The notes under the pieces were generated by a model. The model worked only from the letters and a program-made list of their open reading frames with translations, was not told where the DNA came from and made no database searches. From the NCBI GenBank assembly GCA_020060385.1, contig JAGVAH010000023.1, positions 1 through 47,264 on the forward strand: 47,264 bases of DNA, written 5' to 3'. The stretch's first letter is position 1; every line of letters begins with the position of its first letter. This stretch comes from Syntrophobacterales bacterium. Its GTDB lineage: Bacteria > Desulfobacterota > Desulfobaccia > Desulfobaccales > 0-14-0-80-60-11. Below are positions 2,533 through 25,837 of this stretch, one piece after another. Both the position numbers and the translations under genes were made by a program.

Positions 2533-2595
2533 GAGGGATGCCAAAAAACTTTTTGAAGACTCGGAAATTCCTCCAGAGGTATTGACAGCTAAGTT

Positions 2596-2631
2596 ATATG
2601 AGCTTATACTCATATAAAAAATGGCTCATAT
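2596..2631 (+). promoter_or_regulatory. ArsR-type operator upstream of the ArsR gene
   Basis: A perfect inverted repeat ATATGAG (2596-2602), 6-bp spacer, CTCATAT (2609-2615), followed by a third half-site CTCATAT at 2625-2631 that ends just 3 bases before the arsR ATG. AT-rich dyads of this kind are typical SmtB/ArsR operators. It probably mediates autorepression. Confidence 0.65.
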
Positions 2632-2634
2632 AAA

Positions 2635-2982
2635 ATGGATGAGAAGATACTGGATTCGCTTGCCCGGCTGTTCAAGCTGTTGAGCGATGCCAACCGGCTG
2701 CGGATTATCTTTGCCATCGGCAAAGAGAAAAAATCGGTCTCGGAGATTATTGAGGCCACCTCCCTTTCTCAAACCCTGGTCTCCTTTCACCTGAGACCCT
2801 TGAGAGAGAGCGGCCTCCTATCTACGGAACGGCGGGGGCCTTTTGTCTATTACAGCGTTTCTGATCCGGTGCTGATGGACTTACTGGTGTCCCTCTGCGG
2901 GGTCTCCCCCAAAGAAGAACTGAAAGAAGAGGTCAACTTCGTCTGCCCGCCCATGCGCTTCATGCGGAAGTGGATGAAATGA
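2635..2982 (+). CDS. ArsR/SmtB-family transcriptional repressor
   Basis: A 115-residue winged-helix regulator: LSDANRLRIIFAI is the standard ArsR first helix, TSLSQTLVSFHLRPLRESGLL the recognition helix region, and RRGPFVYYSV the wing. The usual CVC metal motif of ArsR is absent from helix 3; cysteines occur later (LCGV, NFVCPP), so a different metal site or none is possible. It is transcribed divergently from the MerR operon and begins immediately after a palindromic operator with no good ribosome site, suggesting a leaderless or near-leaderless message. The next gene, a TVP38-family membrane protein 27 bases downstream, is probably its main target along with the following metal genes. Confidence 0.85.
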   Translation: MDEKILDSLARLFKLLSDANRLRIIFAIGKEKKSVSEIIEATSLSQTLVSFHLRPLRESGLLSTERRGPFVYYSVSDPVLMDLLVSLCGVSPKEELKEEVNFVCPPMRFMRKWMK

Positions 2983-3009: not shown

Positions 3010-3717
3010 ATGCAAAATAATTCTTCCACCCCAGCAAAACCATCCCTGGTCCGGCCCCTGGTTTTTCTCCTGCTTTTGGTCGGGATCATCTTTGTGGTGC
3101 GATTTTTTCACCTGGACCAATTTTTGGAGAAAGAGCGTCTGAGAGAGACGATCGCAGCCTATGGCCTGTGGGGACCCGTAATCTATATGCTCGTCTGGCT
3201 GGCGGCCCCGCCTTTGTTTCTTCCCGGTCTGCCCATTGGCCTGGCCGGAGGCGTCCTCTTCGGGCCTTTCTGGGGTGTGGTCTATACCATTTTTGCCTCA
3301 ACCGCCGGGGCTACCCTGGCCTTCCTGGTGGCCCGCTACCTGGTCCGCGATTGGGTGGCCGCCAAACTCACCGGCACCAAGCTGGCAGCCCTGGACGAAA
3401 AGGTGGGACAGCATGGCTGGAAAATCGTGGCCTTCACCCGACTTATCCCGGTCTTTCCCTTTAATCTGCTCAACTATGCCTTCGGCCTCACCCGGATTTC
3501 CCTGCCGGCCTATGTGCTTGCCACTTTCATTTTCATGCTTCCCATGACCATCGCCATTATCTACTTCTCGGCGAACCTCCTGGACCTGCTCCAGGGAAAG
3601 GTCACCTGGGGCGTGGTCTTGGGGATTGCCCTGGTGACTCTGGTCGGCCTAATACCGGTTATTTACAAAAAGCTCAGGGCCAGAAGAGCTCTGTTAAATC
3701 TCGATGATTACCAATAA
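3010..3717 (+). CDS. TVP38/TMEM64-family membrane protein
   Basis: A 235-residue polytopic inner-membrane protein of the TVP38/TMEM64 (SNARE-associated, DedA superfamily) type. Diagnostic parts are the glycine-rich re-entrant segment LPGLPIGLAGGVLFGPFWG, the following GATLAFLVARYLVRDW, and the conserved FTRLIPVFPFNLLNYAFG. Bacterial members occur often beside mercury, selenium or arsenic genes and have been suggested to move metal or metalloid species or lipids, but no defined substrate can be assigned here. It follows the ArsR gene closely and precedes the Met-rich gene by 18 bases, so these genes look like one operon under ArsR control. Confidence 0.85.
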   Translation: MQNNSSTPAKPSLVRPLVFLLLLVGIIFVVRFFHLDQFLEKERLRETIAAYGLWGPVIYMLVWLAAPPLFLPGLPIGLAGGVLFGPFWGVVYTIFASTAGATLAFLVARYLVRDWVAAKLTGTKLAALDEKVGQHGWKIVAFTRLIPVFPFNLLNYAFGLTRISLPAYVLATFIFMLPMTIAIIYFSANLLDLLQGKVTWGVVLGIALVTLVGLIPVIYKKLRARRALLNLDDYQ

Positions 3718-3735
3718 AGCAAGCGGAGGTTTGCC

Positions 3736-4095
3736 ATGGAAGAGAAAGGCTGCGGCCCGGGCATGGGCATGGAGATGATGAAAAAGATGATGGAGGGCCA
3801 GGGCGGGGCCATGCTCCCCATGGTGGAAAGGTGAATGCAGATGTGCGAGCAGATGACCGGTACGGTCGTCGAGGTCGGCAGACTGGCGGGGTTCGCCTCC
3901 CCGGAATTACGGGGTTTATTTGATGAATGGCTCAAGGCCCTGGAAAGCGAGATCATTGAAGTTCTCAAAGAAAAAGGCAGTTGCCTCCCGGCTGATTTGG
4001 CTGCCCAACTCAAACTTTCGGAAGAGAGCGTCTTTTTCCTGATCGGCAAGCTGGTCAGGGAGGGCAGGCTGAAGATCACCGGGGTAACATTATAG
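3736..4095 (+). CDS. Met-rich winged-helix-like protein with in-frame UGA (candidate selenoprotein)
   Basis: The ATG at 3736 has AGCGGAGG upstream. It encodes a Met/Gly-rich N-terminus (MEEKGCGPGMGMEMM and so on), then MLPMVER, an in-frame TGA at 3832-3834, and continues in the same frame with MQMCEQM, an acidic helical stretch (SPELRGLFDEWLKALE) and a winged-helix-like C-terminus (LAAQLKLSEESVFFLIGKLVREG). Read through, it is a 119-residue protein with Sec33 and Cys37 in a U-x3-C pair inside the Met-rich region, a natural soft-metal site. A hairpin with a GGU-starting loop lies 25 bases after the UGA. The alternative is two overlapping genes, since ATG directly follows the TGA, but the second start has only a poor ribosome site and both halves form one continuous Met-rich motif. 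The Sec reading is an inference. Confidence 0.6.
3852..3870 (+). promoter_or_regulatory. SECIS-like hairpin after UGA 3832
   Basis: GAUGACC-GGUAC-GGUCGUC forms a 7-bp stem with a 5-base loop starting GGU. The loop begins 25 bases after the UGA, within the 16-37 range described for bacterial SECIS elements, which also require a G among the first loop bases. One G-U pair is present. Confidence 0.5.
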
Positions 4096-4115: not shown

Positions 4116-4391
4116 ATGGAGGTTGTTATGGGACCGGATTATTCCTGGCCCTGGTGGGGGCCGATGTGGGTCTTTCCCACCTTTATGCCCATCATCATGC
4201 TGGTGGTGATGATTGTGGCGCTCTATCTCATCTTCGGGCGAGGGGGATTTTGCGCTCCCTGGCACGGATCGACCCGGAATTTTGACCGGGACCGCTCGGA
4301 GTCGGCCCTGGATATACTCAAGAAGCGCTACGCCAGGGGCGAAATCACCGCGGAAGAGTTCGAGCGGATGAAACAGAGTATCCTCAGCTAG
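4116..4391 (+). CDS. small membrane protein with SHOCT domain
   Basis: A 91-residue protein with a Trp/Pro-rich N-terminus (YSWPWWGPMWVFP), one strong membrane helix (IIMLVVMIVALYLIFG) and a C-terminal SHOCT motif, ALDILKKRYARGEITAEEFERMKQ, which is the diagnostic short domain found at the ends of many membrane proteins. SHOCT domains are thought to mediate oligomerisation. A possible GTTATG start lies inside the sequence at MGPDY. It sits between the Met-rich candidate selenoprotein and the methyltransferase and belongs to the same operon by spacing. Similar small SHOCT proteins are frequent in copper and mercury loci, but no reaction can be assigned. Confidence 0.8.
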   Translation: MEVVMGPDYSWPWWGPMWVFPTFMPIIMLVVMIVALYLIFGRGGFCAPWHGSTRNFDRDRSESALDILKKRYARGEITAEEFERMKQSILS

Positions 4392-4401
4392 AGGTGCAAT
4401 C

Positions 4402-5952
4402 ATGGACGCCGAACTGACCCCACAAGATCAGAAGCGGATCGAAGAAAGTATCCGGGGAAAGTACGTCAAGGTCGCGGTCAGCCCGGAAGGTCTGTTCCGC
4501 TATCCCACGGGCCGGGCTGGTCTGGAGGCCCTGCATTACGACCCGCAGATCATCCCAGACCTTCCGGAGCAGGTCGCCGCGGCCTACTGCGGGGTAGGAA
4601 ATCCCTTTTCTCTGGGGCCGATCCAGCCGGGAGAAACCGTCCTGGATATCGGTTGCGGCGCCGGGGTCGATTCCCTCATCGCCGCCAGGATGGTGGGGCC
4701 GTCAGGTTCGGTCAGGGGCATCGACCTGGTTCCCGAGATGCTTAACCGGGCCAAGGAGAACGCCAGGCTGGTGGGGGCTGAGAATGTCGAGTTTACGGAA
4801 GGCTCGGCGCAGGAATTGCCTTTCCCTGATGCCAGCTTCGACGTGGTGATCTCCAACGGGGTATTTAATCTGGTGGTGGATAAGGTCAAGGCCCTGGAAG
4901 AGGTCATGCGGGTCTTGAAACCGGGCGGGCGGTTCATGATTGCCGACCAGGTATTGGCCGGAGAATTGCCCAAGGAGACCAGGGCCAGGGTCGAGAATTG
5001 GGCCAGGTGAGAGGGCGGGGCCATACCGGGAAAGGTTTTCCTGGAACTATTGCAACGTGCAGGATTTGAAGATGGTGAATTGGTGGCCGAAACCGGATTC
5101 AATAGCTCACCGGTCACCAAAGGGGTATTGGTTCGGTCCGTCAAACCCCTGGCGGCAACAGTAGGAGAGCGAAAGAAAGCGGCTGCGGGCATGGCCATGG
5201 AGGACACGATGGATTACCTGGTGAAACGGGCCTTGGAGTTGGGCGCTGAGAAAGCCAAAATCATCGACACGGAGACGGTGGTGATCGGCGAATGGGTGCG
5301 CTGGAAGTGTCTCTATGGCTGCCCCATGTATGCCAAGGACGGCTTTCACCCGCCAATCGCCCCGGATGCGGAGAGCACGAAGAAGGTGCTGGGGGAGTAT
5401 ACCAAGGCCATCCTGCTCAACGGCCCCAACGGAATGACCCTCACCGAAGCCGCGGTAAAATTGGAGGGCGAAGCCTATCACCGGGGCTATTACAAGGCGT
5501 TCGCGCTCACGGCTTTGGTGCCCAGTGGCGCGGTAGGATGTGCGCCGCCAAGCCCTGGTCCCGATCCTGCTCCCGGAGGCGGGTGACCCACCGGGAAGAC
5601 CCAGGCTCCGGCGGAGCCTGCGAAAGCAGAGGAGATCAAACCGGCAGATGTGCAACCGAGTCCCAGCCCCGGCGGCGGGTGACCGTCCGGCCAGGCGGCG
5701 GCTCCGGGCGAGCCGTCAAAGACCGAAGAGATTAAGCCAGTTCCCAGCCCTGGCGGAACCTGACCCACCGGCGCGGCAGAGGTCCAGGTAGGGCCTCAGA
5801 GTGGGGAGCTAACCAAGCTCAGGATCAGACCCATGATGGAAGCCTGCGGCATCGACGTCTTCAAAACCGCCAGGCATAACGGCTTTGACATCGACACCAG
5901 GAAAGAGACCTACGGCAGATGGAACTATTTTGCCTTAGTCCTGGTTGATTAG
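4402..5952 (+). CDS. ArsM-like methyltransferase-DUF2284 fusion with four in-frame UGA codons (candidate multi-Sec selenoprotein)
   Basis: Read with UGA as selenocysteine this is one 516-residue protein ending at TAG 5950-5952. Residues 1-250 are an ArsM-like SAM methyltransferase: motif I VLDIGCGAG at 80-88 and the VLKPGG region; the As-binding Cys of SNCVINL-type motifs is Gly153 (SNGVFNL). Sec203 (UGA 5008) sits in ENWAR-U-EGGAIPG, where ArsM and AS3MT have their substrate cysteine. Residues 264-516 are DUF2284, a predicted metal-binding family: ALELGAEKAKIIDT, Cys303, Cys307, then His316 where family members usually have Cys. The usual Cys cluster is replaced by three Pro/Gly repeats with PGG(G/T)-U-P(T/S)G at Sec395, Sec427 and Sec454 (UGA 5584, 5680, 5761), followed by the conserved RPMMEACGIDVF. 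The stops are all UGA, never UAG or UAA, and each has a SECIS-like hairpin 3' to it. The substrate may be As, Hg or Se species. A pseudogene is the alternative. Confidence 0.75.
5026..5044 (+). promoter_or_regulatory. SECIS-like hairpin after UGA 5008
   Basis: CCGGGAAA-GGU-UUUCCUGG forms an 8-bp stem (one G-U pair) with a three-base GGU loop. The first loop G is 24 bases after the UGA. This closely fits the bacterial SECIS consensus of a GGU-containing apical loop on a short stem. Confidence 0.7.
5602..5620 (+). promoter_or_regulatory. SECIS-like hairpin after UGA 5584
   Basis: CAGGCUCC-GGC-GGAGCCUG is a perfect 8-bp stem with a three-base GGC loop. The first loop G lies 24 bases after the UGA, the same offset as in the methyltransferase domain. 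Confidence 0.7.
5697..5717 (+). promoter_or_regulatory. SECIS-like hairpin after UGA 5680
   Basis: GGCGGCUC-CGGGC-GAGCCGUC forms an 8-bp stem with one G-U pair and a CGGGC loop. The first loop G is again 24 bases after the UGA. The sequence differs from the hairpin after UGA 5584 on both arms while pairing is kept. Confidence 0.65.
5779..5797 (+). promoter_or_regulatory. SECIS-like hairpin after UGA 5761
   Basis: GAGGUCC-AGGUA-GGGCCUC forms a 7-bp stem (one U-G pair) with an AGGUA loop, which resembles the AGGU loop of E. coli fdhF. The first loop G is 24 bases after the UGA. Confidence 0.7.
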
Positions 5953-8105: not shown

Positions 8106-8384
8106 ATGAAAAAGGCGGTTGTTCTTATCCTGGCATTGACGTTAATCACCGGCTCCGGCCTGGCCCTGGCCCAGGCGCAAAAAGAGGCCCAGCCTCAGCC
8201 ACAGCAACCCATGATGATGATGTGTCCCTGCATGATGATGATGATGTCCCAAAAGGAGATGACCCCGGAGGAAATGAAGAAGATGCAGGAACAGATGGCG
8301 CAGTGGATGCAAACGTGTCCCATGATGAAAATGATGCAGCAGCAGCCGCCGCAACAGCCCCAACAACCCGAAAAGAAAAAGTAG
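8106..8384 (+). CDS. exported Met-rich small protein
   Basis: A 92-residue protein with a clear Sec signal peptide (MKKAVVLILALTLITGSGLALAQA, predicted cleavage after ALA-QA) and a mature part dominated by Met, Gln and Pro, including MMMMCPCMMMMM and TCPMMKMM. Clusters of Met with CPC and CP motifs are typical of periplasmic Cu(I)/Ag(I)-binding proteins. GGGAGG lies 6 bases upstream of the ATG. It follows paralog 1 of the kinase-like genes by about 75 bases and precedes a second Met-rich gene, so a function in periplasmic metal buffering that feeds the sensors is likely but unproven. Confidence 0.75.
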   Translation: MKKAVVLILALTLITGSGLALAQAQKEAQPQPQQPMMMMCPCMMMMMSQKEMTPEEMKKMQEQMAQWMQTCPMMKMMQQQPPQQPQQPEKKK

Positions 8385-8412: not shown

Positions 8413-8769
8413 ATGAGAAAGGCAACAGTTTTCCTATTGGTGGCGGCCTTGGTCATGGGCGCGGGAATTTCCGCCGCCCAGATGCGCGGGGATCACCCGA
8501 TGATGGGCGGCCCGATGTCGGGCTGTCCCTGGATGCCCGATTACATGGGCCGGATGCAAGGGATGATGGGTGACATGCGCAGGATGATGAACAGGCCCAT
8601 GACCCCCGAGCAGCAAAAGGAAATGATGGGCATGATGGACCAGATGGGCACCATGATGCACCAGATGTGCGGCCCCCAGGCCGCCCAGATGAAGCCGCAG
8701 CACGATCAACAATTGCAGGACATGCAAAAGCGGCTGGATGCCATAAAACAGCAGTTGCAAAAGAAATAG
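8413..8769 (+). CDS. exported Met-rich protein, paralog A
   Basis: A 118-residue protein with a signal peptide (MRKATVFLLVAALVMGAGISAAQ) and a mature Met-rich region containing CPWMPDYMGRM, several MMxxM runs, then QMGTMMHQMCGP and a C-terminal helix LQDMQKRLDAIKQQL. A close paralog lies at 9852-10220 with the same order of motifs, so they arose by duplication. The regular spacing of Met in predicted helices plus two Cys and several His suggests soft-metal binding in the periplasm, as in CopM/CusF-like or Spy/CpxP-like proteins. AAGGAG precedes the start. Confidence 0.75.
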   Translation: MRKATVFLLVAALVMGAGISAAQMRGDHPMMGGPMSGCPWMPDYMGRMQGMMGDMRRMMNRPMTPEQQKEMMGMMDQMGTMMHQMCGPQAAQMKPQHDQQLQDMQKRLDAIKQQLQKK

Positions 8770-25559: not shown

Positions 25560-25577
25560 GTTCACTAATTTCAGCGT

Positions 25578-25742
25578 ACAGGCGCCCTTCGGGGCTTAAA
25601 AGGGAAGCCGGTGCAAGTCCGGCATGGTCCCGCCGCTGTAACCGGGGACGAAACCTGCGTGATGCCACTGTTTGGCTGGAGCCGAATGGGAAGGCGCAGG
25701 GAGTAGGCGGATCCGGAAATCAGAAGACCTGCCTGTATGTCA
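25578..25742 (+). ncRNA. cobalamin (adenosylcobalamin-type) riboswitch
   Basis: The conserved core is clear: GCCGGTGCAAGTCCGGCATGGTCCCGCCGCTGTAACCGG (split here only as one continuous match region 25606-25644), GATGCCACTG at 25661-25670, ATGGGAAGGCG near 25686-25696, and AATCAGAAGACCTGCCTG at 25719-25736. These are the B12-box elements of the Cobalamin riboswitch family. Binding of a corrinoid is expected to favour the downstream terminator at 25838 and switch the receptor/chelatase operon off. Confidence 0.95.
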
Positions 25743-25837
25743 GCGGTTATACCCCCACGCGTGATGGGGGCTGACCCGGCCGGCGCAGGGATGGAAAACC
25801 TGCCCGGCCGCTCCTGGGGACAAAGCAAACTGGGTGC

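Follow-up and report, generated by a model that had tools for sequence, protein, structure and literature searches.

A reading frame of 119 residues, located at positions 3736-4095 of the forward strand of contig JAGVAH010000023.1 from a Syntrophobacterales bacterium (assembly GCA_020060385.1), contains a single TGA at codon 33 (positions 3832-3834). The window, that is the whole stretch of DNA analysed, is 47,264 nucleotides long. The locus raises the question of whether this UGA ends the protein or is decoded as selenocysteine (Sec), and of what such a protein would do next to genes for an ArsR-type repressor and an arsenite methyltransferase (ArsM). The explanation favoured here is a selenoprotein with a metal(loid) role in an ArsR-controlled cluster, to which a probability of roughly 0.6 is assigned, a compromise between the decoding of the UGA and the role of the protein.

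The reading frame and its UGA codon

Translation of positions 3736-4095 gives MEEKGCGPGMGMEMMKKMMEGQGGAMLPMVER-U-MQMCEQM...KITGVTL followed by a stop codon, and confirms the sequence-only reading that a Met/Gly-rich start of 32 codons runs into the TGA and the same frame continues with MQMCEQM. A Shine-Dalgarno sequence, GGAGG (3725-3729, forward strand), is located 6 nt 5' of the ATG at 3736. The predicted product is comprised of a Met-rich N-terminus, Sec33, Cys37 and a winged-helix-like C-terminal domain. The in-frame UGA (3832-3834, forward strand) is assigned to Sec33 on the basis of the homolog column described below and of the presence of selB and tRNA-Sec in the genome. SelB scores 363.8 bits (cut-off 242.25) and tRNA-Sec 78.3 bits (cut-off 47), the latter in two hits of identical score, each at a contig end, which are possibly one gene.

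The two closest relatives, L001 and L002, are 93% and 89% identical to the window protein, are present as two copies in one MAG (WY4.bin79, G001), and keep the UGA. Between the window and L001, all 6 changes before the UGA and 20 of the 30 after it are synonymous, against expected fractions of 18% and 26% (binomial, 4e-5 and 4e-6, respectively). The corresponding counts are 6 of 8 and 28 of 45 for the window and L002, and 4 of 6 and 20 of 36 for L001 and L002. There is an excess of synonymous changes on both sides of the UGA, and therefore both parts are most likely translated in frame. As shown by this comparison, both flanks appear to be under in-frame purifying selection.

Homologs and the Sec/Cys column

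The first scan of genome contigs for relatives gave five loci (L001-L005). Further searches, covering the phylum of the window (395 and 394 genomes drawn), its class (29 genomes) and one other order (46 genomes), added L064, L065, L066, L067, L068, L080 and L091. The alignment of the short homologs consists of 14 sequences, including the window. Position 33 is occupied by U in four of them, by Cys in five and by Met in one, and is a gap in the remaining four, so that the non-UGA homologs possessing this residue have Cys in five cases out of six and Met in one. Cys at position 33, which the sequence-only reading had anticipated among relatives, is found in L003, where the motif is PMEMC, and in L064, L066, L068 and L091, where it is MPEMC or MPDMC. 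The UGA of L080, a distant homolog from another family (genome G438), falls in the same column (MPDMU). The Met belongs to L075, from a Thauera plasmid. Position 33 is missing from L004 and L005, although their N-terminus is Met-rich as well, and L065 and L067 also have a gap there.

None of the 14 short homologs begins at the methionine of MQMC without a Met-rich extension, the arrangement that the earlier reading had set against its own proposal. The Met-rich N-terminus is present in 13 of the 14; L067 starts later, is without most of the extension and has an MDPMEMMKGM of its own. The proposed U-x3-C pair is not strictly conserved: what persists is U or C at position 33, and Cys37 is replaced by Met or Gly in L064, L066, L068, L091 and L080.

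The four U sequences (window, L001, L002 and L080) and the Cys sequences L064, L066, L068 and L091 form a clade with support of 99/96. The tree requires two changes between U and C, and the column may have a single origin. With 4 of the 14 short homologs lacking residue 33, the site is apparently dispensable in some lineages.

UGA-bearing members of the short subfamily were seen in three genomes only, namely that of the window (G000), G001 (the same as G406) and G438. Within the window's class, the UGA form is present in 2 of 29 genomes (G000 and G001). SelB exceeds its cut-off in 9 of the 12 genome entries with relatives, among which G406 is G001 again. The three entries below the cut-off, G305, G408 and G409, hold L065, L004 and L005, all of which are without residue 33; L067 also lacks the residue, yet its genome, G376, has selB. 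The hosts of the Cys members L003, L064, L066 and L068 have selB. No relative was found among the viral contigs searched, and the plasmid collection contained one weak relative, on Thauera pTX1. A search of 398 genomes from the phylum of L004's host returned nothing good beyond that host itself, and two marginal matches.

The hairpin downstream of the UGA

The UGA is followed by a SECIS-like hairpin, GATGACCG-GUA-CGGUCGUC (3852-3870, forward strand). Its stem of 7 bp, or 8 bp with the closing G-C pair (3852-3859 with 3863-3870), starts 18 bases past the UGA. The hairpin with a GGUAC loop that had been noted earlier does exist, but the distance of 25 bases given for it is that to the start of the loop and not of the stem. 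In the bacterial SECIS model, as described in a review (PMC13188914), the apical loop lies 16-37 nt past the UGA, is 3-9 nt long and has a G in its first two positions, and the stem is 4-16 bp long with a stability of -7.5 kcal/mol or lower. The hairpin agrees with this model, having a loop of 3 nt at 25 nt with G first, a stem of 8 bp and a stability of -10.1 kcal/mol. The two strands of the window have 1364 TGA triplets in all, of which 28, true Sec codons included, are followed by a SECIS-like hairpin of equal or greater stability. The hairpin after UGA 3832 is more than is expected by chance.

All eight pairs can be formed, in ungapped columns, by each of the four UGA homologs. Two of the pairs are changed on both sides in a compensatory manner and two on one side, and sliding the partners by 1-3 columns abolishes the pairing. 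In the covariation control, the observed value was reached in 24 of 500 shuffles. The five Cys homologs form only 2-5 of the eight pairs. Pairing in a single sequence is not decisive, because random synonymous codings of the same peptide give 8/8 pairs in 4.2% of cases for the window and 6.7% for L080. The hairpin of L080 is located at the same distance from the UGA as that of the window, and UGA members of other subfamilies (L081, L084 and L085) also form hairpins in the corresponding stretch. No Rfam element was found near the gene at gathering thresholds.

The proposal of a selenoprotein is thus supported by the conserved UGA, the Cys of the relatives, the hairpin and the presence of selB and tRNA-Sec. 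There is little doubt, judging from these comparisons, that UGA 3832 would be decoded as Sec, and the gene very probably encodes one selenoprotein of 119 residues whose relatives have Cys in the Sec column.

Other readings of the UGA

Translation might instead be coupled across two frames, in which case a Met-rich leader of 32 residues would end at UGA 3832 and ribosomes would restart at the ATG at 3835 to produce an 86-residue winged-helix protein. The ATG directly follows the UGA and is preceded by GGAAAGG (3825-3831), and both are kept in L001 and L002. However, this Shine-Dalgarno-like stretch is just 3 nt from the ATG, and the UGA of L080 has no adjacent ATG (UGA ACG AGC AUG). Furthermore, 9 of the 10 short homologs without the UGA have the Met-rich and winged-helix parts in a single unbroken frame, the exception being L067 with its later start, and the sharing of one column by Cys and UGA would be left unexplained. 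Restart at ATG 3835 is therefore improbable.

Still less probable is the insertion of some other amino acid at the UGA, or a leaky, selenium-independent readthrough: selB and tRNA-Sec are present, the hairpin is confined to the UGA members, and the equivalence with Cys fits Sec. A nonsense mutation or pseudogene, which the early in-frame stop might suggest, is contradicted by the conservation of the codon, which is UGA rather than UAA or UAG in each of the three close copies and in the distant homolog, and by the purifying selection on the downstream codons (28/45 for the window and L002), and can be dismissed.

Predicted structure

The winged-helix-like domain (residues 71-114; 3946-4077, forward strand) is assigned from a profile match, an AlphaFold model and PDB fold matches. 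The claim of such a domain made from the sequence is reasonable in the light of the model and the fold matches, but the sequence score itself, 19.9 bits for Pfam HTH_24 (PF13412), is below the gathering threshold of 21.9. AlphaFold predicts helices at residues 9-21, 27-51, 56-80, 85-92 and 96-108, with a confident model over about residues 51-110 and low confidence in the N-terminal half. The closest PDB folds are mostly HTH domains of the Lrp/AsnC and DeoR types, all with E above 0.001. A sequence search of the PDB with the family profile gave nothing better than E 0.03, the matches being mostly HTH regulators.

Met29, Sec33, Met36, Cys37 and Met40 are all located on the helix predicted, with low confidence, at residues 27-51. 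Sec33 and Cys37 are in positions i and i+4 of this helix, where the pLDDT is about 50-60. A soft-metal site composed of these Sec, Met and Cys residues is plausible.

The gene cluster and its promoter

The genes of the cluster are on the same strand in the order ArsR (2635), VTT (3010), selenoprotein, SHOCT (4116) and ArsM/DUF2284 (4402), with gaps of 10-27 nt, in keeping with the earlier suggestion of an operon shared with a multi-UGA gene.

The first gene (2635-2982, forward strand) encodes an ArsR/SmtB-type repressor (Pfam HTH_5, 44.5 bits, cut-off 22; NF033788, 75.8 bits, cut-off 55). It is TsoR-like, TsoR (NF045707) being its top model at 93.2 bits, below the cut-off of 115. It differs from TsoR in its Met-rich C-terminal tail, PPMRFMxxWM, which is common to the ArsR partners of the Cys homologs. 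This unusual tail (CPPMRFMRKWMK in the window) is also seen in the ArsR proteins encoded beside several relatives and is a possible thioether metal site.

The next gene (3010-3717, forward strand) encodes a VTT-domain, DedA/TVP38-like, membrane protein (PF09335, 85.6 bits, cut-off 33.9). Downstream of the selenoprotein gene are a gene for a small Trp/Met-rich membrane protein with a C-terminal SHOCT domain (4116-4391, forward strand; PF09851, 44.6 bits, cut-off 27) and the arsenite methyltransferase/DUF2284 selenoprotein gene (4402-5952, forward strand; NF041536, 715.8 bits, cut-off 575). The latter has four in-frame UGAs, at 5008, 5584, 5680 and 5761, versus the two listed for NF041536 in review PMC13188914. 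Each of the four is followed by a SECIS-like hairpin, and the last three are found within a repeat, GGGUPTG / GGGUPSG / GGTUPTG.

In G438, a small membrane protein similar to the SHOCT protein is encoded just ahead of the UGA gene. In G339, a membrane segment rich in Trp and Met, resembling that of the SHOCT protein, shares a frame with a UGA-containing winged-helix-like domain (L085:1492-1983, reverse strand), which is possibly a fusion of the two neighbours. This neighbour in G438 and the apparent fusion in G339 hint at a partnership between the SHOCT protein and the selenoprotein.

Of the 14 short-homolog loci, 11 have an ArsR-like gene upstream, either adjacent or at a distance of two genes; it was recognised by domain profile in the window, L087, L066, L064 and L091, and by eye in L001, L002, L003, L065, L067 and L068. 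In L004 and L005 its place is taken by two ORFs, one methyltransferase-like and one Met-rich (identified by eye), and in L075 by genes for CadR and a heavy-metal P-type ATPase. Two adjacent, secreted-looking and extremely Met-rich ORFs, with runs such as MMMMCPCMMMMM, are found near the cluster (8106-8384 and 8413-8769), and a cobalamin riboswitch is present at 25563-25750 (Rfam, 109 bits).

A sigma-70-like promoter, TTGACA-17-TATACT (2582-2610, forward strand), with 11 of 12 consensus matches, is located upstream of arsR. There are four sigma-70-like sites in the region, against a shuffle mean of 1.4. The -10 element of the promoter upstream of arsR is overlapped by the palindrome TTATATGAG-N6-CTCATATAA (ATATGAG-N6-CTCATAT; 2594-2617), which is the probable ArsR operator. 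A palindrome of the same motif, 7-9 bp long, occupies the same place in the window, L001, L002 and the distant L065, and L087 has a different, AT-rich palindrome of 7 bp there. L064, L066, L068 and L091 have CTCATAT-like half sites only and no full palindrome, and L003 has neither.

Relationship to TsoA

TsoA is a selenoprotein with the motif LULAXC (NF045695), attributed to Haft and Tolstoy (2025, mSystems) in review PMC13188914. It is the sole meaningful NCBIfam match of the window protein, which scores 58 bits where the cut-off is 170 (E 1.3e-15). The match is limited to residues 34-110, corresponding to model positions 68-144. The two proteins are alike in their homologous C-terminal half, small size, Sec, U-x3-C in a helix and an adjacent ArsR/SmtB gene. 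Unlike TsoA, the window protein has a Met-rich stretch in place of the helical N-terminal half and reads ERUMQMC, with no LULAXC motif, and its neighbours are the VTT, SHOCT and ArsM genes, with no TsoB-like gene seen alongside. The MVxxU found in both proteins raised the possibility that Sec33 corresponds to Sec61 of TsoA; the joint alignment gives this no support, placing the two in separate columns. The Sec sites of the two proteins may have separate histories.

The window's genome contains a true TsoA elsewhere (L007, 214.4 bits), adjacent to a rhodanese/DsbD-like gene with two UGAs. The Tso-like locus of this genome, L072 (G000:C157), consists of ArsR, TsoA with a UGA, and a rhodanese/DsbD-like gene with U-x4-U. 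In all 33 TsoA-type loci displayed, a count that leaves out weaker matches forming no locus and L040, dropped as unrelated, the UGA is within an MVHLU-like motif. Only 2 of the 33 pass a SECIS test with a contiguous stem at -7.5 kcal/mol; by eye, the loci have a conserved stretch, GGxCGA-AGGUG-UCG-A-xCC, in which pairing leaves a bulged A that this test disallowed. L047, L048 and L049 are TsoA-like, with the motif MVEHU or MVEYU and a C-terminal half resembling the window protein, and are possible intermediates. The hypothetical protein WP_034928677.1 of Thauera pTX1 has the same architecture as the window protein and a metal-resistance context, but its residue aligned with Sec33 is Met and neither Cys nor Sec.

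From these comparisons the window protein looks like a member of a TsoA-related, Met-rich, winged-helix-like selenoprotein subfamily, a relative of TsoA rather than a TsoA. The subfamily is unnamed in the profile libraries and literature searched, and an unnamed mention in the primary TsoA paper is possible. Table 1 of review PMC13188914 (119 families) lists TsoA and nothing with the motif and architecture of the subfamily. Another TsoA-related subfamily is seen in G437, at L081:1492-1782 (reverse strand) and L084:1402-1692 (forward strand), and its short N-terminus carries the UGA (KRU-GPS, NKU-GPS). Genes nearby, named by eye, are ECF-sigma-like or encode a small membrane protein rich in Trp and Met.

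Possible function

The gene context and residue composition suggest, at about even odds, a metal(loid) role for the selenoprotein, which would then be likely to act as an accessory protein in soft-metal(loid) binding or sensing. The main rival is a redox role, in which Sec33 would form a selenenylsulfide with Cys37 or with a thiol of a partner and the protein would be a thiol oxidoreductase, a redox sensor or peroxidase-like, in line with what is assumed for most selenoproteins. The U-x3-C on one predicted helix would suit such chemistry, the genome's TsoA gene adjoins the rhodanese/DsbD-like gene with two UGAs, and review PMC13188914 anticipates that the roles of uncharacterised selenoproteins are mostly in redox chemistry. 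However, five members with U/C33 have Met or Gly in place of the resolving Cys37, the AlphaFold model has no thioredoxin-like fold, and the neighbourhood is one of ArsR/ArsM and metal resistance. A redox role is the less likely of the two.

For the metal(loid) role, the following mechanism can be postulated. The cluster's own ArsR would occupy the palindrome that overlaps the -10 element and repress transcription until a thiophilic metal(loid), most likely As(III), released it from the DNA. The Met/Cys/Sec helix at residues 27-51 would capture a soft metal(loid) or a reactive arsenical, and the winged-helix-like domain would dimerise or dock on ArsR, on DNA or on the SHOCT membrane partner. 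The selenoprotein would then buffer the metalloid, deliver it to the Sec-ArsM, or signal that it is there. In its most specific form the proposal is tentative and somewhat doubtful: a Sec-based soft-metal(loid) carrier or sensor, controlled by ArsR and built as a Met/Cys/Sec helix on a winged-helix-like scaffold, would catch As(III) or methylated arsenicals and pass them to the Sec-ArsM or to the SHOCT partner.

Significance

The finding adds a subfamily of selenoproteins whose genes are cut in two at the UGA by gene finders. It places the uncharacterised TsoA in a broader winged-helix-like set, in which a Met-rich site holds Sec, Cys or nothing. The Cys relatives with the same ArsR neighbour offer a natural comparison for the contribution of selenium, and the link to ArsR and ArsM points to a concrete, testable class of substrates, the thiophilic metalloids. 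If the selenoprotein is indeed a carrier or sensor of this kind, the cluster would constitute a multi-selenoprotein arsenic pathway, and the protein would be a selenium metallochaperone or co-sensor.
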